DNA of 64,000 bases from Owenia fusiformis (taxonomy: Eukaryota > Annelida > Polychaeta > Sabellida > Oweniidae), in assembly GCA_903813345.2 (NCBI GenBank), contig CAIIXF020000011.1, forward strand, positions 31,302,166-31,366,165. Reading direction: 5' to 3'. The position numbers and the translations under genes were made by a program. The first letter of the stretch is position 1. Every line of letters starts with the position of its first letter. Positions 4,101 to 56,581 of the stretch are shown piece after piece. The notes under the pieces were generated by a model. That model ran no database searches. It worked only from the letters and a program-made list of their open reading frames with translations, and was not told the DNA's origin.

Positions 4101-7044
4101 TGGTTTATACATTACATGGTTGTTGTACAGGTTATACACTGTTATTATCAAAAAACATTGTGTGACACAAAATCAGGTAATTATACATGTAATGAATAAA
4201 GGACATATTACTTTAAATGTTCTTAGAGTATTAGTACAGTAATGTGCATTCATCATGAGAAAAAATACACGCTGTAATATGTGTGTGAGAAAAAAATACA
4301 CGCAGTAATATGTGCATTGAACTCTGTAATCGCTTTCAAAATTCAAAAACTCAATCTAGTATTTAGATTAAAACACAAGAATTTCAGTATTTATAGTTTT
4401 AAGTCTCATTTTCCAACTTTTTCAATTTGGTAAAATTTACTTTTCCTTTTTTTACCTTTTCCCAAATCTAAAAATAAATCAATACTAAACTTTATGTATG
4501 CTCACAAGTTTTATAAATAGGTTCCCTGTATCATGTTTTATAAAATTGCTTCATTAAAATAAATTATAAAATAGGCATTAAAAATACAAAATGACAACAT
4601 GACACAATGTTTGTATTACGTAAACATAAATAAAATGTCCATGTATATAATTGAACAAAATGCAAAAAGAAGAAAGATTTATTTTAATTCATATTCTCAA
4701 AGGAGTTTAAAATACTGAATAACTAAACCTACCTAATACAGAATTCTGTCCTCGCACCCTGTTGCTGATCTATCTATATTTATCCTAATGTGGACTAAAA
4801 AGATTTCCTCTGTTAAAAATGAGCCTATTATCCTATAATACACTACCTTTTAATTGTTCTACCATCAAGTCAGTGTGTTTGAAATTCTGGAACATTATAT
4901 TGTATAGATGAACAAACAAAAGTGAAAAGCAACACCCTTGATCAATTGGTGTGGTAATACAGGATTCCATAAAACCCTCTCATAACTGCGTAAGTGCTGG
5001 ATCAATCAGAATAAACGCTAGATACTGTAAAACATGTCGAAGGCAAAATCAGATAAACCTAATAGCCTGTCCAAATAACTTGTTTCAATATTCAAATATT
5101 TTTGGCTCATATCATTCCATGCTACATATGTAATTTCTAAAAATCTGAAATCTATTCCAAGAAAAAATATGTTTGGCTCATATCATTCTATGTCATAATT
5201 TCTAGAAATCTGAAGTTTACTATTCCAAGAAAAAAATAACATGTTTACAATTTATGTGTTCATTTTTCTATAAATGTGGATATCTTTATCTGTATTAGGC
5301 TAGTGTAATATTGAATTTATTAGGAAGTGTATCTCTGATAGAAGTAATTCCGAATTCACAACATTGCATGAATGAGGCTTCATGTCTTACAGTATGAGCT
5401 GGAAATAAAGCTTCCGATACCTGACATAAACATATACCTGACATAAATGGCACTCACATTAGAAATTACCATGGTCACTAAATAACAGCACTCCATTGAT
5501 AGCCACCCTGCTTGTGAGTTTGATTAGTTTCTCACGCCAGTGTTCTAAAATCATAATTTTTAACAAAAAAGTAAAACTGAGTGAGAAACACCATACCCAT
5601 AAACGTCTGGCAACCTGGGAGTTTATCAAGTTATTCAGTAGAATATGAGTCAGAGTTATCATTTTTATCTACATGTAGAGAATAAAAATGCCCAAGATTT
5701 CTAGAACAGATGAGTTCCCGCACAGTATCATGGTCTTCAATATGGTTCTCATGGTGGTCTTATAAGGTGGTACAAAATGATACCACTGAGACCATATTTT
5801 TCAACTTTAGTAATACCTTTAAAGTGGAACAACTCTATAAATGGAACACCTCAGTAAGGGGAACACTTTTCCAAGTCCTATTACCCATTAACAAGATGAA
5901 CATCTGTAAGTGAAACACCAAATTAGAACACTATTTCGAGGTCCTGAAGAAGTTCTATCATATAAAACTGTTGCAGTTTTTTTAAAAAAAAAGATGAAAC
6001 AATTTAATCAACCAATTTACCTATTATTCAGCTAGTTTGAGTCAGTATTCAGTTATTGGTTTCTCAAAGTACACCAAATACAGTATAGCAGCCCAGCTTC
6101 AATCATGTAATATTTTTTTTCATTCAAAAATGATATAAGAAATCGAAGAGATACAACACTTTGACATAAAATATATCCAAATCATTGAAAATTGATCTCC
6201 TGATTGGTCAAATAAAACCATGTGGTTAAAATGGGGCACATGGGAGCAAACGTAGAGCTTTATTATTCCCTTATTTCCACCTATTGGCTTTTATGATGCT
6301 TCTGCTACCCATCAATTCTGACAGACTCCATCCTATACCCTAACAAAAAAATAATTGGCAATATTCAAATTCCTAACACCCCAAAGAAAATCTACTAAAA
6401 ACACAATTTTCTTAGGTTCTTATAAATACTGTCTCATGAATTCCTCTTGGTTGGTTTTATACTTTTATGTTTCGTTGACAGTATGTGAAAATTTAGTTTC
6501 TATGATTTATATTGTAAGGGGAATATTGATTGCCTGTTTTATAATAACTGATTAAGCTGACAATTCTATGTCCCAATATCTTAAATACTGTTATCAAGAT
6601 TTATCTATATCCAAGTTATTGGTTTTTGGATGGAAATGCCTGTAAAGCATTCATTTATAACATTTGTAAGCTCTAATTACATGGATATAAGATACAGACT
6701 CAGTCACATAAATAGAAGACAGGAGCTGAGCTAAATTGAGGAAATTGGGGCTCCACATTCTTCCTATTTGAAATACTAAACTAGAATGAATTGTAATATT
6801 CATGTATTTGGTAATATGAAATATTTTACATTTCAAAACCAAGTAAATAATTTAAAATACTCATTTAAAATGGTGGTACAGTGGTTTTTCAAAACAGAAA
6901 TCAAAATCATTTAGCATAATGGGCAACATAAGAAAAACAAAGATAAACACCATGCAACACAAAATATGTATCTATATAACACTGACACACAACCTTGAAT
7001 GATAATGTGATATGTCCTCATATAAACTTGTATGTACTTATAAT

Positions 7045-22524: not shown

Positions 22525-23080
22525 CAGGCCTGTCAACTGTCCCGCAATTTGCGTATTTGTCACGCATTTGCTGAAGAATTTGAAGTCACGCCAGTTTTTT
22601 TTGCGTGACAGAAAATGTCACGCAAATACGCATTTTATCTGGTAATTGTCACGCAAAAATATTTCTGTAGAAAAATTTCTAAAATAGATCGTCTACACAG
22701 CAAAAATACGAACGCCGGAAAAAAAATGTACGCATTTCGTTCGGACTTTTCACGCGAATTACGTATATGTCACGCATTCCGTTCGAAATTTTGTATATGT
22801 CACGCATTTCGTTCGAAATTTTTCGTACCTACCCCCCCCCCCCCCACTCCCCCCCCCCCCCCCCCCCCCCCCCCCGTTGACGGATGTTTGAAACGCGAGC
22901 GTAGCGAGCGCGAAAAATTTGAGGTGTTCAAAATTTGGCAAGATGTCCTAAAATTTAAACCAAGGTGTTCAAAATTTGGATCAAGGTGTTCAGATTTGGA
23001 CCAAGGTGTCCACATTTTGAGGGGAGGTGTTCAACATTTCCAAGTCACTCATGTTAGGTGTTCCCAAGTTGACAGGCCTG
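22525..23080. mobile_element. Poly-C MITE copy 1 with 6-bp duplication CTGAAT
   Basis: A 556-bp element starts with CAGGCCTGTCAACT and ends with AAGTTGACAGGCCTG, so the terminal repeat is about 13-15 bp and begins with the palindrome CAGGCCTG. It is flanked by CTGAAT at 22519-22524 and 23081-23086. Internally it carries TGTCACGCATT and CACGC words, a long interrupted poly-C tract (22832-22875), then GTTGACGG(A/C), ACGCGAGCGTAGCGAG and several CCAAGGTGT words. The long 22615-23154 reading frame is only the repeat plus poly-C (a proline run) and is not a gene. CAG-type ends suggest hAT; a 6-bp duplication would be compatible with a hAT subgroup or with another superfamily such as Dada. Confidence 0.88.
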
Positions 23081-23460
23081 CTGAATGGTTAGAAGATTTT
23101 ACAGTGTGGCAGCCCCACCCCTATAGCCGGTGGCCATCACACACCAGGTCATAAATTAATTCAAACCCATTGTGCCAACATTTTCTCAACCAAACAGCAA
23201 GCAGAAGGAAACATGTTTCAATAATGTTGAATCTAAGTCAATACTGGGTCATTGATGTTGTCGAAGAAAGGACCATAGAAAATAGTCCTTCTACTGAAGA
23301 CCTTGCTATGGTTTGCTTGAAGTGATTTCAGAGGTTTAAACTTCAGCGGTATAGACTAAGCTATATCTTTCAAGAAGCAGGTAAAAGAATGCAAGGGGTA
23401 ACCCCTTTTTGCTTAGTCCAAAGGTTTTTATGTCACCACCACAAGTGTTATGGTCTCCAA

Positions 23461-40200: not shown

Positions 40201-41487
40201 TGTATTGATACAACTCATCAATGAAAAATGAAAGCCCCGTAGAGAATTAAACTATCCCAGCGATGAATTAAAGTCTATTGACTGTTTATTGAAGAAACTT
40301 GTAAAAATTATGAATTATTTATCACTCGTTTTTTTGTTATCGTAAAGTGTGAAAATTGTTCTGCATTTGTTATCACTTTCATCAAGATTTCTCTCGTTTC
40401 CATGGAAATATAAGATGTATCAATCTTTGTAAGGGCATCAAAAGCTGTTTAATGAATTCTGATGCAAGCTTCCTGATGGTATTAAATGTAACAATAGTTG
40501 AATACCAGTCATCTTCGAAGATTGACAGCTGACACGAAAAATGGCAAAAATCCGTTGTGAACATTTTCCTATATTTTAAAAACTATTATTGACAAATTGT
40601 AAATTTTTTATAACAATAGTCTTATTCAACCATTTTTAAAATTGGAAGTTAACACGTAAAAATAGCAACGATCCATCGTAAATAGTTTCCCTTCTTTCAA
40701 AAGTTATTATTGACAAATTGTAAAGTTATTATTATAATATTGGATGTTAATTCATCAAGCGTTGGCTAGTCTCAGTATGCAGTGGGAACCAATATCAGGA
40801 TTAAAATGGTGGTGTCAGTTGTTTAGAGAAACTTTGACATTATATCACCTGAGGTATTGTGCTAAACACACTTCTATTCTTTCTCTAGAGGTAACCAGCT
40901 AAGAGCCTAGAGCTTAGTAGTACTATAACTATGTTCTTTTAATGAAACAACAGCAAAAAATTGAAAACGGTAGCTTTGAGAGTCTCTGGTATATCATAAT
41001 GCACCTGATCTGAGCTTCAAAAGAAGATGCAGCTTTTTCTAGAGTATTCCTTAGAACAATCATCATACTCCTCATAATCATTTCCTTGCAATTTTCTTGA
41101 TTGAACTTTGTCATTACAATTGTGATATCACAATCATTTCCTTACAATTTTTTCATACAATTATTTCCTTCTAATTTTTCTTTTGATTAACACTATGTTA
41201 TCACATTTGTATCAATACAAGTACATGTATATCCTTACAATATTCTCCATACAATATTAACTGCGTTTGATGCATCATCACAAGCTATTAAAACAATATC
41301 ATTAAATTATGCAGAACTAGGTCAATTGTTCTTTTAGAAGATTCTTTTGAAGAGGATTATGCTATTTGAGTCATTGAATAGGTAATAAGCTGTCCAAAAT
41401 TTGGTTGTATCGTGAAAGAGAATAAATAATTAAAATGCATAGTTGTTGGCCATGAATGAGTGTTTCAATTTCTGACAAACTCAACAA

Positions 41488-41858
41488 TACCCTTTGCATT
41501 CGTTTGACTTCACTTCTTAAAAGAGAGCTTCGTCTTCACTCTTTCAAACTAAAATAAACCTGTGAACTCACCGCGCCAATCAGTGATCGTCGGCCAAATT
41601 TGACCGACATTCTTTATATGGTCATTCCTTCTGACGTCATCGTTGAGCCCGGAATTGACCAATGACATGCACATATTTAATTAGAACGCATTTGGCGTAT
41701 GTTTCTTCAAGCTCGCTGACTGGTGGAAGGTCAGGGCGTAGGTCAAAAGTGATTTACCCAAACTGTCACCGGTGCCCGTCGTGGGGGCGGGGCTAATAAA
41801 CTGTAATATGGTCTCTACTAGGCAGAGTGTAGTTTAACTAGACTCTGCACGCAGGGTA
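41488..41858. mobile_element. 371-bp element family M, copy A, 9-bp duplication
   Basis: It starts TACCCTTTGCATTCGTTTGA and ends CTCTGCACGCAGGGTA. The inverted ends are short (TACCCT, with TGCA slightly further in). The exact 9-bp duplication ACTCAACAA lies at 41479-41487 and 41859-41867. The interior is more G+C-rich than the surroundings and carries AAGAGAGCTTCGTCTTCACT, CACCGCGCCAATCAGTG, GACGTCATCGTTGAG and GGGGGCGGGGCTA, with two CCAAT words. There is no coding capacity. A 9-bp duplication is seen in some Mutator-like and Merlin-like elements, but neither can be asserted from these ends. Confidence 0.92.
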
Positions 41859-44800
41859 ACTCAACAAGCAAATCAAGCTCCAATTCTGCTTAAAATAATT
41901 GTAAATTAGAAAATCATCTTTCATATTAAAAGTTGATGAGATAATCATGATAAAATAGCTACCCTTATTGGGAAAACCACAAATTAATGCATGCCAGAAC
42001 CCTAAATGAAATAAATACCCATGTATTACATTGATTATAATATGTGCATGATGTATGCAAATAGAAAACAGTACATAGGAAATGAAGAAAACAAGTGGGT
42101 TTGAAATGTATTAATTAGTGATTGTATTATTATAATCATAGACAGGAAATCAAACAATATTAATTATTTATAGTATTATGTTGCCTTTAAATAAAATTTT
42201 ATGGTTTTAACAACAAAAATTTAATGACAGATTTTGCAAACTTTTGACTTCTCCGTGGCATCTGAAGACATTTTGAGTTCTTTGATGATCATCACATGTT
42301 TGTATTTGAACTACTAGCAATGTTTTAGAAAAGAACTCAGAATGCTCAAAAGGGGTCTTCAGTAGTATTTGGGATTTCAAGCCTCTGTAGAATCATTTAT
42401 ATGAAACACCTGAGGCCTATCAAGGAGTTAAATGAGTAGAGTGGATGCTTCCTGGCTGAGGGGGCTCTCTTTCAGGAGATAATGGGATATCCCTTAAAAT
42501 TGGCTTTTTAATTATGACATCACATGGCCTCATCAACAACAAACAAAGATAGTGTGGCTTCATTTAGCCATTCAATAACCTTAGATAAGTGAGTGAATTG
42601 TATATAAAGATCTCCTTGGTAAATCAAATTAATTTCTGAATCCAGCTCCTTTTGCAGGGTTAAGACATCTTATACTTAATGAAAATATTATGTAAGATTG
42701 TTATTAATTTGTGGTTATTAGTGACCACAAGGCTGTACCATTAATAACAAAGGTTGTCCATGCTTGTACTATATAGACTGCTAACTAGCCATTGTGGGAT
42801 CCACAGCCTTTACTATCCTTTTGGAATAGTTCAGACTGTGGGATACTGACTGTAATAAATGTTTCCTTTAACCCTAAAATGTACGGACCAATCAAATTAT
42901 TTACAGAGTTCTATTGACCATGAGTATCATGGGAAGGCATTACCTGCAGTTGCATGATTACATAAGCAGACAAAGCCTAATGAGTGTGACCAAAAACAAT
43001 GCCCTCCCAAATAATCCAAGTGTTGACATTTGCATGATAATTATTGTTTAAAATTCTAAATTGGAAAACAATAAGAAAAAAGAAGTATGTCAACATTATC
43101 ATAGTTATTAATTTTCAATATAAAAACAAGAACCATCAAGATATATAAAAGTTTTCCACATAATGAATTCATTGAATTAAAGTTTACAAAGGGGAAAACA
43201 GGACGGTGCATTCTTAGGCACTAATTTATTCCTCCATATACACTGATTTACTTGGAGAATGCACTGGCTAGGAACATGTTCTGCATCATGATATATCAGA
43301 GTCTCTCAAAAACGTTAGATAAAGAGGGACTCTGATAAATCAGAATGCTAACTAGCCATTCTGGTTTGAATATTGAACAACCCAACATTGTGATCTGGCT
43401 AGTATCATTAACATCTTGGTGAGGTCATCCATTTATTTTTAAGGTTTCTAGTAATGTGGAAACCTGTGCAGTGTTTGAAAATACACTTTTATGACCTTTG
43501 TGCAGCAGGGGTTCATTAGCAATGAGCTTTCAAGAGAATGATATGCTAATTCCAAGATTTCAGATTCTTTTTTGGGAGAACAACCAACACATCCATTTGT
43601 TTAGTTCATTATTAAGCTAATGATATTTTGGGGTGATTAATGATTATTATTTAGTTTGCTACATTTTTCTGAGTGAACAAGTTCAATCTTTTCACATCAG
43701 ATTTTTATGGTGCACCCTTGTGGCTATTCTGATGTTGACCTGGTCAAAACTTCACACTTAGCCTATATGTGAAGTTTGGATGATATTTCATATTAATATT
43801 TTACACTGAAACACTAATCAGAGTCACACTATTGTTCATTATTAATTACTACACATATGCATACAGGTGAGAAAATAACAGATTTCGCATCATATAATTT
43901 ATAGTTGTAGGGCTTCATGTTATAATTAAAATTAAGAGGTAAATAAAATGTTTACACATCCGGTATGGTCCACCCTTCGGGGCTTTCTGTTTTACCATAT
44001 TTGAAGTGTTGATGCTGTATTTGATCATAAAATATGCAAACCATAATGCTTAACAAGCTGCTATAGAGTGCACTGTATTACTCAGTAAACAAAATTCCCC
44101 GTGTTTACAAGTTTTCTTCCAAATTTGTAGTGACGTAAAATGTTACGTCAGATGTAGCGTAGAATTGACTTGCACGAATCAGCTCACTGTAAGAGATGCT
44201 TCCTTCATGACTCATGTTGGTATTTAAAGTTGCAGAATTCTCCTTTCTGTACTCAAACAAAATTACAGTAATTTTCATGCTTTTTCCAAAGATTTGCAAA
44301 GAAGACAAGATATTTAATGAGATTTGCTGTTATTTGATTTAAGATTGACAATTGAATAATGTTAAAATAGGAAAAAGTATGCTTTTTCAATTTAAAGAGT
44401 GTGAATTTTAATTTTCATTATGGAATCAATTAGTAGGGCATCATACTATATTGACCTAAACTTACCCTAGTCTATTCCAGGCACATGAGTGTTAACCTTA
44501 TGCAAAATTTGGAAAAAATCTTAAAAGTAGACTAAATGTCCCTGGATGAAATACCATGGTGATAATTTTATAAAATACAAAATAGAGTGAAAATTAGTGA
44601 AATTCTCAAAGACTAAAGTAATTGGGAATGTAGCTAACATTTTAATCCAATAGAGGGATCTAACAAATCCTGGTAGGACATTAAGATTTTAAAGAAACTA
44701 TCTATAGTAGCTTTGAGTGGTAGAAGATTTTAGGGAAGGTAGCTGAAAGTTAAAGGTAAGTGATGTAAAGAGGCCAAACAGAGGGATACTCTAAGATGTA

Positions 44801-45695
44801 ATGGTGGGTTGCGGAGGCTGCATCTTCCTCATCTTTAAGCATTCCATCCTCAAATCTTGAGTTCATGAAAAGTCTGGTGGGGACTATACATGCAGAGGAA
44901 ATACCGACACTAAGTTGGATGTTTAATAGGATTATATAGGGTTTATCATGGACCACTAATCCTAATCCAGCCATACTAATCTGAACTAGGGGTTGATTAA
45001 AAGTTTATACTTATGACAACATCACATTGAGGAGCAACTCTTATCCTTCTATCAGTGAACAGGCTGATTTTGTGGTGCCAATCACAGGGTGCCTAGTTGA
45101 GACAGGATATACATTGGAGACACAGGATATGGACTAGTTGGTGTTCTTCCTATTAGTCTATGATAAGTAACATAGGATAACAGACCAGTAAGGGAGCCTA
45201 GTTTACCATGGCATAAGATGATAAAACCACCTTGCTGATCTTACAAGATTAGACGAATTTATCTTACCCAAAACAGTAACAAATAAACCAGGCTTTGCCA
45301 CACACAAATTTGGTTTTGACAAAAAGGTTATTTTCAAAGATCCTAGTGACATCAACTGATCAACATCACCATATGAATAATATTGTTATAACATACAAAG
45401 AAGGGGATGAAATAAAAGCCATATCTAAAACTTGGAAGTACGTAATAAAGAATTTAAGTCATATCTGAAACTTGGAACTAAGCTCTGGATAAAACTCATA
45501 TTTTATAGCAGAATAAAATACTCACTATCAGACAGTTTGCTGTAAAAGTTGGGGTAATGGTCCTGGATTGTATCATGGAGACAAATGAAGATTCTGGTGG
45601 TAAGTAATATTATTAACTGATAAGTGCCAAGATGAAAATACTATAGTAAGTCAAGCCATCTATAATATAATTGTAGTAAGTATCAGCATAGAACA

Positions 45696-45882
45696 CAGGC
45701 CCATAGTTAAGAGGGGGGAGGGTGAGCTGGGGGAGTGGAAGCTCTCCCTGGCTAGAAATTCTTTCAAAATCATGATATTTTTCACCATTCTGAGCACTTT
45801 TCGCATGATGTTTTAGCCAAAACTGTCAAAAAGCTCCCCCCTTGGCAAAAGCTCCCCCTCTTTGTAAATGCTGGCTACAGGC
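45696..45882. mobile_element. GGCCCGTAGC-ended MITE, copy 2
   Basis: It starts CAGGCCCATAGTTAAG and ends CTGGCTACAGGC. The flanking octamers are ATAGAACA (45688-45695) and AAGGAACA (45883-45890), six of eight identical. It shares the TTCTTTCAAAATCATG, TTTTTCACCATTCTGAGCAC and AAAACTGTCAAA words with the other copies. Confidence 0.72.
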
Positions 45883-45972
45883 AAGGAACAAGTAAAGTAC
45901 AAGTATAAAAAGGAGGTTTAGCTACACATTTTAAGAGAAGTTGTACATGTGAACATAATGTATGTAATAAGT

Positions 45973-46343
45973 TACCCTTTGCATTCGTTTGACTTCACTT
46001 CTTAAAAGAGAGCTTCGTCTTCACTCTTTCAAACTAAAATAAACCTGTGAACTCACCGCGCCAATCAGTGTTCGTCGGCCAAATTTGACCGACGTTCTTT
46101 ATATGGTCATTCCTTCTTACGTCATCGTTGAGCCCGGAATTGACCAATGACATGCGCATATTTAATTAGAACGCATTTGGCGCATGTTTCTTCAAGCTCA
46201 CTGATTGGTGGAAGGTCAGTGCGTAGGTCAAAAGTGATTTACCCAAACTGTCACCGGTACCAGTCGTGGGGGCGGGGCTACTAAACTGTAATATGGTCTC
46301 TACTAGGCAGAGTGTAGTTTAACTAGACTCTGCAAGCAGGGTA
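45973..46343. mobile_element. 371-bp element family M, copy B, 9-bp duplication
   Basis: It has exactly the same length and ends as copy A at 41488, in the same orientation, with roughly a dozen base differences by eye (for example GATCG/GTTCG, CTGACG/CTTACG). It is flanked by GTAATAAGT at 45964-45972 and again at 46344-46352. The high similarity indicates recent activity. It lies between two GGCCCGTAGC-ended elements. Confidence 0.93.
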
Positions 46344-46778
46344 GTAATAAGTGCAATCAGAGGGATTACTGCCCCCCCCCTCTTCATTGGTTTTCCCAGG
46401 GACCTAATTTTAACTATTTACCTTACTATTAGATTCAATTAAAGGTGAGAACTAATCCCCATAGGACCATCATAATTTCTACAAGTTTGCTTGCATATGA
46501 TTTCTCTGAAAACATGTAGCTTGACCTCCCTATTGATGCAGTAGAGCAAATAAGTCTTGCAGGAAGCACTTGTGATCCTACTTTATACCTCACAAACAGA
46601 TGCAAAGGGGACCTCAATTTATGTTTAGGGTTTAGAACCAGTAACATATGATGTATATTCCAAACACAGGGGTAAAGACATCATCCGCAATGTTCCTTTC
46701 TATTTTACTCATTTCTCTATAAAGGAACATAGTAGATGATGTCTGGACCCCTGCATTTGGAGGATGGATAGAGTGTAC

Positions 46779-49510: not shown

Positions 49511-50364
49511 TCAAATTATGCTGGAGGATATATAGCAGCAAATGCCAGAGTTCGCTATAGGACACAGCAAGACATATGACTAACAGTTAATAATATAAAA
49601 CTAATCTCTCTAGAAATATGACTAATTTTAATAGGTCATGATTTGTGCATGTATTATCTTACATTACTGTGCATAATGACTCGCATGCATCAGTCATGCT
49701 AGAATGAGACAATCAGCTTTATGCAATTATCAACCTGATTATACAGCATTTATTTATGAGATTTTAAACAATGGAATTTTGTCCATTATGACAACCATCA
49801 CATTGTTCTGTGTAACATCTACCCTGTGCACAGAGTCTAGTTATTATAAACTTCAGACGAGGACCAAGCTTTCTTTAAAGAAGCGAAGTCGCATGAATGC
49901 GAATGGTATCATGTTACATCAAGCAATATGTTAGAACTGATAGAATGTTATGATGTCCTATGATGACTTCTACCTGATGGTTAATGAAGTCAATCCTATT
50001 TTTCCTAAGAATCTAGACAATGAGATCTTTCCCTGAGCTCAGCTCTTTTAAGAAACAAAGTTGTGTTAATGAAAGGGTAATGAGAACTAAGGTCTTGTTT
50101 TAGAATAAAAAACAAAAGAAATAGTAATTGGAAGTTATTTTTTCATTTTAGTCAAAAATTATGACGATGTGGACATCATTGTAAAACCATCTTTGGGAGT
50201 GCCGTTGGGATGAGCTAAGGTTTGCACATGAGTTTTTTTATTATTAGTTTTTCTATTGCCTCTGTTACCAGTTAGACAATCAAAATATCTGTCTGATATA
50301 AGTGTTTACATTTCTTGGTGTTCACTTGATGAGAGGTGTTCACATTGCTAGATTTTAGTGCACA

Positions 50365-56500: not shown

Positions 56501-56581
56501 TAACCTTTGCATTCCTTGGACTTTACTTTTCACTTCCTAAAAGAGAGCTTCGTACTTAATAACTAGACTGGGTGCAGGGTA
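56501..56581. mobile_element. Family M element, internally deleted to 81 bp (copy C)
   Basis: It retains the left end TAACCTTTGCATTC and CCTAAAAGAGAGCTTCGT, then jumps directly to the right end AACTAGACTGGGTGCAGGGTA. About 290 bp of interior are missing relative to the copies at 41488 and 45973. The flanks CCCATGTTA (56492-56500) and CCCATGATG (56582-56590) share the first six of nine bases, consistent with an older, mutated 9-bp duplication. Confidence 0.78.

Follow-up and report, generated by a model that had tools for sequence, protein, structure and literature searches.

Full-length elements and their relatives in the window

The 64,000-nt stretch of DNA analysed here (the window) holds two full copies of a transposable element, each 371 bp long, starting with TACCCTTTGCAT, ending with GCAGGGTA and differing from the other at 12 positions (Table 1). 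The first-pass annotation had described these two copies as equal in length, with TACCCT...AGGGTA ends and perfect but differing 9-bp duplications (ACTCAACAA and GTAATAAGT), and all of this is exact. Its remark on a G+C-rich, CCAAT-containing interior also holds, with a G+C content of 0.45–0.46 in the copies vs 0.33 in the whole window. The inner segment of the first copy contains several CCAAT/ATTGG boxes, a CRE-like TGACGTCA, a GC box and GGGGCGGGG, all read by eye; these motifs are putatively promoter-like, or may be protein binding sites required for movement. Some of them are also kept in an older subfamily of the element. The window contains in addition two diverged short relatives and a probable ancient full-length one, the last adjoined by a simple-sequence tract with long C runs at 22818–22876.

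Table 1. Copies of the 371-bp family and their parts in the window
Feature	Position	Strand	Remarks
Full 371-bp element, copy 1	41488..41858	+	Genome search and reading of the window
5' arm of copy 1	41488..41537	+	Element positions 1–50, the maximum kept in scars
Inner segment of copy 1	41538..41827	+	Positions 51–340, absent from scars; no ORF
3' arm of copy 1	41828..41858	+	Positions 341–371, kept in scars
Target duplication of copy 1, left	41479..41487	.	9 bp, ACTCAACAA
Target duplication of copy 1, right	41859..41867	.	9 bp, ACTCAACAA
Full 371-bp element, copy 2	45973..46343	+	Arms 45973–46022 and 46313–46343
Target duplication of copy 2, left	45964..45972	.	9 bp, GTAATAAGT
Target duplication of copy 2, right	46344..46352	.	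9 bp, GTAATAAGT
Diverged old 81-bp scar, same family	56501..56581	+	Duplication CCCATGTTA/CCCATGATG, 2 mismatches
Diverged old scar	49820..49908	-	Near-duplication GATGTAACA/GATGTTACA, three extra bases on one side (by eye)
Probable ancient full-length relative	23020..23403	-	5' end TACCCCTTGCATT; 3' end not definable

Genome-wide copies and target duplications

The genome assembly (498 Mb in 525 contigs) was searched for the 371-bp unit. The best-scoring 40 copies, all retrieved with a single query and so biased to young copies, are spread over eleven large contigs, and most are 371 bp long with 1–10 differences from the consensus, supporting the recent mobility proposed in the first-pass annotation. 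TACCCT...AGGGTA ends are present in 39 of these 40 copies and an exact 9-bp duplication in 38, with 39 different duplication sequences in all. As a control, mismatched pairings of left and right flanks gave a 9-bp match in 2 of 1,560 cases, both due to loci L040 and L041, which have one duplication and flank in common. The 10th flanking base agrees in 8 of the 40 copies, which is the chance level. Target preference is weak and palindromic, with T/C two bases before the duplication and A/G two bases after it. The same 9-bp duplications were found in a random sample of 5' termini and are not confined to the best 40 copies. The first 21 bases of the element, allowing up to 2 mismatches, occur at 4,467 genomic sites (reversed control, 0). 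This search and the flanking 9-mers, which the first-pass annotation had proposed as a check, revealed neither a lack of 9-bp duplications nor homology extending past TACCCT/AGGGTA.

A duplication of fixed length, here 9 bp, that follows no sequence rule is the mark of cut-and-paste integration. The 371-bp family is a non-autonomous cut-and-paste DNA transposon, present in many copies and active until recently. It has the properties of a MITE: a length of 371 bp, no coding capacity, a 6-bp terminal inverted repeat (TACCCT), a 9-bp duplication and thousands of termini. Further forms are a 373–378-bp subfamily, very abundant scars of 64–95 bp, and an older subfamily (L136–L143, and 23020–23403 in the window) that measures 336–379 bp in the copies measured and is ~30% different in its interior (ACTCTTTCAGTTTACAATAAAT). 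This older subfamily keeps the layout and the CCAAT boxes of the 371-bp element, and the architecture is therefore old. Mariner-like elements (CAAGGGCCGATC or CAAGGGGCGATC, TA target) lie inside family copies at L088 (199–826) and L089 (1554–4241); the broken family copy at L089 belongs to a tandem array that repeats every 1.18 kb.

Collapsed copies with insertion-specific joints

The short scars, of about 80 bp and with joints specific to each insertion, are a new point that is invisible from the two full copies. The sizes of random 5'-terminus loci are bimodal, at 64–95 bp or 371–378 bp. In a structure-blind sample of 14 loci taken by order alone (L053–L066; a small sample), eight were scars of ~75–82 bp and six were full copies of 371–378 bp. 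A large share of the insertions in this genome, roughly half of the copies, are scars without the inner ~290 bp. Each scar consists of a 5' arm of at most 50 nt and a 3' arm of ~31 nt, from about position 341, lying between mostly perfect 9-bp duplications. An exact-pattern search for this arrangement returned 767 places (control, 0), and 52 different joints were found among the 100 scars listed of these 767, a count that rests on exact patterns and so bounds the visible trimming. In the listed scars the 5' side matches the consensus to position 50 at most, the two that reach 51 being at chance level, and the 3' side resumes mainly at 341–343. The joints are blunt, show 1–4 bp of microhomology, or carry filler partly copied from nearby sequence (GTCTTC, CTTC, TTAAC). 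Twenty sampled scars had 19 duplications and 19 joints in one-to-one correspondence. Divergence from the consensus in the sampled scars is ~1% in the 5' arm and ~4% in the 3' arm, whereas almost every insertion has a joint of its own.

The joints that recur were compared by their duplications. Seven occurrences of GTCTTAGTGTAG, the most frequent complex joint, were examined. Apart from point changes, all carry the duplication TCATAAAAC, and the 30-bp flanks are identical wherever these were read; a derivative with six extra bases has the same duplication. The joint pair GACTGTACT likewise goes with one duplication and the same flanks. With one duplication and identical flanks, GTCTTAGTGTAG is therefore a single insertion multiplied with its host repeat, and the same holds for GACTGTACT; the constancy of duplication throughout, and of flanks where read, rules out GTCTTAGTGTAG as a travelling lineage. 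The simple joint GTCTTCGTCTGTAG, which needs only the copying of GTC, occurs with four different duplications, and some scars with simple joints such as this one may have been re-mobilised. Since the complex joints checked are each tied to one duplication, each was generated a single time per insertion, and the short form seems not to be a travelling lineage.

A few copies are of intermediate size (130, 163 and 249 bp), and none occurred in the random sample. L141 consists of exactly positions 1–50 followed by 172–371, with perfect duplications; L090 consists of positions 1–74, filler and the right arm; and L087 of about positions 1–82, a piece of a second family (below) and then the 341 boundary.

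Break points and the inner segment

Each 8-base terminus of the element was compared with the interior at all positions. For the 3' terminus the closest internal match lies at position 342 (6/8 bases, in the right orientation), and position 50 is one of the two best internal matches to the 5' terminus (6/8 bases, also in the right orientation). Both break points of the scars thus lie at most 1–2 bp from the internal sites that best resemble the ends of the element, the matched inner and outer pairs being CACTCTTTC vs TACCCTTTG and CACTCTGCC vs TACCCTGCG. A nested insertion was rejected as the origin of the inner part, as its flanks, CTTCGTCTT and TAGTTTAAC, form no duplication. A pattern search for independently inserted inner segments, which sees starts at 51 and not at C50, returned none, and 270 kb of fetched DNA outside the known full copies contained no solo inner segment apart from 3' fragments at two loci, L051 and L146, of which the second adjoins a diverged copy with its 3' arm.

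A second family with the same behaviour

The foreign piece inside L087 led to the discovery of another family, here called family B (L111–L118, L052 and L087), whose ends (CATTCTGGTATGCCAG and GGCTATCGCGATG) are unrelated to those of the 371-bp family, family A. A script detected 9-bp duplications in 6 of 7 family B copies, and inspection by eye showed one in the remaining copy as well. All copies are short, at about 80–115 bp. The 54 joints compared comprise 43 different ones, and neither arm extends beyond a sharp limit of 45 nt. Twenty-two of the 23 complete 3' arms of family B are joined to a 5' arm of their own family, the remaining one being L087, a chimaera with family A; no full-length family B element was found among these 23. 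At L052 a family A scar with the duplication CGGCTATCG sits within a family B scar, and that A insertion is therefore the younger of the two. The same behaviour in families with different ends argues that it is due to the transposition machinery and not to one sequence.

Search for a transposase

The first-pass annotation rightly named no superfamily. A 9-bp duplication speaks against the P superfamily (8 bp) and against hAT, which was rejected on its required 8-bp duplication, and it allows MULE, Merlin (in which 9-bp duplications also occur) and possibly Academ; the 8–11-bp range of MULE/Mutator duplications includes 9 bp. Kolobok and piggyBac were rejected because they require a TTAA duplication, and the duplications here are 9 bp and not TTAA. 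KolobokP has excised direct repeats, but with TTAA duplications (PMC9587614), which do not fit the scars, and it was rejected as a model for them.

TACCCT ends were absent from all eight MULE loci (PF10551) in the flanks read, about 10 kb for five of them and 1.5 kb for the others, with the sole exception of a scar on L081/L069 that is unrelated and has a duplication of its own. Three of the MULEs (L080, L082 and L083) have ~110-bp inverted repeats starting with GGT and 8–9-bp duplications; two of these copies share 97% identity and have 617-aa open frames. Four weak partial matches to the IS1595-type domain (PF12762) lacked the element ends in the flanks read. At 13 P-type loci (PF21787) the ends were absent within 1.5 kb of all and within ~3.7 kb of four; a diverged family A copy lies near one of the 13. 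One of these loci, L119, was joined by reverse complement and its seam is clean in neither orientation, and the 9-bp duplication candidates listed at the joined P-type loci are chance noise. One PF21787 sequence (L120–L123 and L132–L135) is 99.5% identical over ~5.1 kb across two contigs and has a 591-aa open frame; on the left it lies within tandem repeats, and definite ends were not found for it. Two exclusion patterns, combining the known 5' part with another interior and passing ~32% and 42% of interiors, yielded no coding copy; they returned nested mariner-like insertions, rare internal deletions and the older subfamily. The longer autonomous relative sharing these ends, for which the first-pass annotation had suggested looking, was thus not encountered among the transposase loci and exclusion-pattern matches examined.

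Origin of the scars

The observations to be explained are full-length insertion with an exact 9-bp duplication, the loss of ~290 bp between fixed points, and joints specific to each insertion. We consider the scars to be probably (roughly 0.6) donor sites that were broken at two fixed internal points and healed by end joining. A candidate transposase would move the ~371-bp non-autonomous element; it or a partner would break the element ~50 and ~31 nt in, at sites resembling the outer ends, and cellular end joining would rejoin the remaining arms at the donor. This joining may be of a pol-theta-like kind, because microhomology and templated filler occur at the joints. In the simplest form, which is less certain, the cut would be a very long P-like stagger, with one strand cut at the terminus and the other deep inside. 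The departing element would then keep complete 3' strands and could insert at full length, and the donor would be left with 50- and 31-nt single-stranded arms, so that the full-length moved copy and the donor arms would both follow from staggers of 50 and 31 nt. Double-strand cutting at pseudo-ends would account for the resemblance between inner and outer ends no less well than a P-like stagger. The one-sided copies L141, L090 and L087 may reflect partial gap repair by copying before joining.

Alternatively, the ~80-bp form might be a MITE subfamily of the usual kind, with an internal deletion and its own mobility, whose centre varies for want of constraint. Its two complete outer termini and perfect 9-bp duplications are what such a subfamily would have, and the GTCTTCGTCTGTAG class, with its four duplications, behaves like one. 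Arms so close to the consensus (~1% and ~4%) are nevertheless hard to reconcile with a joint that changes from insertion to insertion, any complex joint checked that recurs does so with an unchanged duplication and, where flanks were read, unchanged flanks, and the recurrent joints fit microhomology or the copying of the adjacent GTCTTC; we regard this explanation as unlikely. Little weight can likewise be given to abortive gap repair after ordinary excision, in which synthesis on the sister chromatid would copy a little of each end before end joining. Internal deletions with filler are known to arise in this way, and the intermediate copies are of the kind such repair would produce, but random synthesis lengths should yield a continuum, whereas the random sample is without intermediates, the breaks are concentrated at 50 and 341 with hardly any beyond, and the limits of family B are equally sharp.

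Another proposal, that two pre-cut end fragments are integrated and then joined, so that scars were never full length, would suit family B, with its 22 of 23 3' arms on their own 5' arms and with full-length elements not found. It is very improbable, given that full family A copies are abundant and that the one-sided L141, with its perfect duplication, is easier to derive from a full insertion. A solo LTR of a retroelement would account for the ~370-bp length and the promoter-like motifs, and was rejected as practically inconceivable on its ends, which are TACCCT...AGGGTA and not TG...CA, and on duplications of 9 bp and not 4–6 bp. Donor breakage at two fixed points followed by end joining thus remains our preferred reading. 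It is possible, although we hold this only tentatively, that a novel kind of transposase is at work, one that makes 9-bp duplications, cuts the donor 30–50 nt inside the element and leaves barcoded scars of ~80–90 bp in two unrelated families, one of them known from scars only.

Relation to known systems and significance

In the P element one strand is cut at the terminus and the second 17 nt farther in, and the duplication is 8 bp (PMC7776569). Elements of the P superfamily, including the THAP9 type, resemble the present family in moving by cut-and-paste and in having left and right ends that differ. Their donor break falls within the element, which allows its ends to remain behind, and is mended by end joining or copying, as would be the case here on the preferred reading. 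The P element differs in its duplication (8 bp in fly and zebrafish vs 9 bp), its terminal inverted repeats (31 bp in fly or 13 bp in zebrafish vs the 6-bp TACCCT) and its cut (17 nt vs the 50 and 31 nt suggested here). The scar boundaries at 50 and 341, which as plain sequence carry no strand polarity, are compatible with long staggered donor cleavage.

MULE/Mutator elements (MuDR, including TIR-poor forms) typically have duplications of ~9 bp, as found here, but the MULEs of this genome have other ends, with ~110-bp terminal inverted repeats beginning with GGT. Merlin elements, related to IS1595/IS1016, share duplications of 8–9 bp, but the four weak PF12762 matches are without these ends in the flanks read; 8-bp duplications have been described for Merlin (PMC10045372). 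MITEs in general are likewise short and non-coding, with terminal inverted repeats, fixed duplications and many copies. Known MITE families keep a single internal deletion joint, whereas the joint of the short form here is particular to each insertion. By analogy only, V(D)J coding joints also combine two site-specific breaks with imprecise joining, trimming and filler; here, by contrast, there is no RSS and the retained parts are transposon arms.

Most cut-and-paste excision footprints consist of a few bases and are soon unrecognisable. Here the footprints seem to be 80–90 bp long and to keep their duplications intact, which would make emptied insertions countable and datable, and thousands of end-joining events of the germ line, each with starting ends that are known, could be read in a single genome. 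If true, the long internal cut would be an extreme extension of the 17-nt stagger of the P element, and would point to a transposase class not yet linked to its elements.
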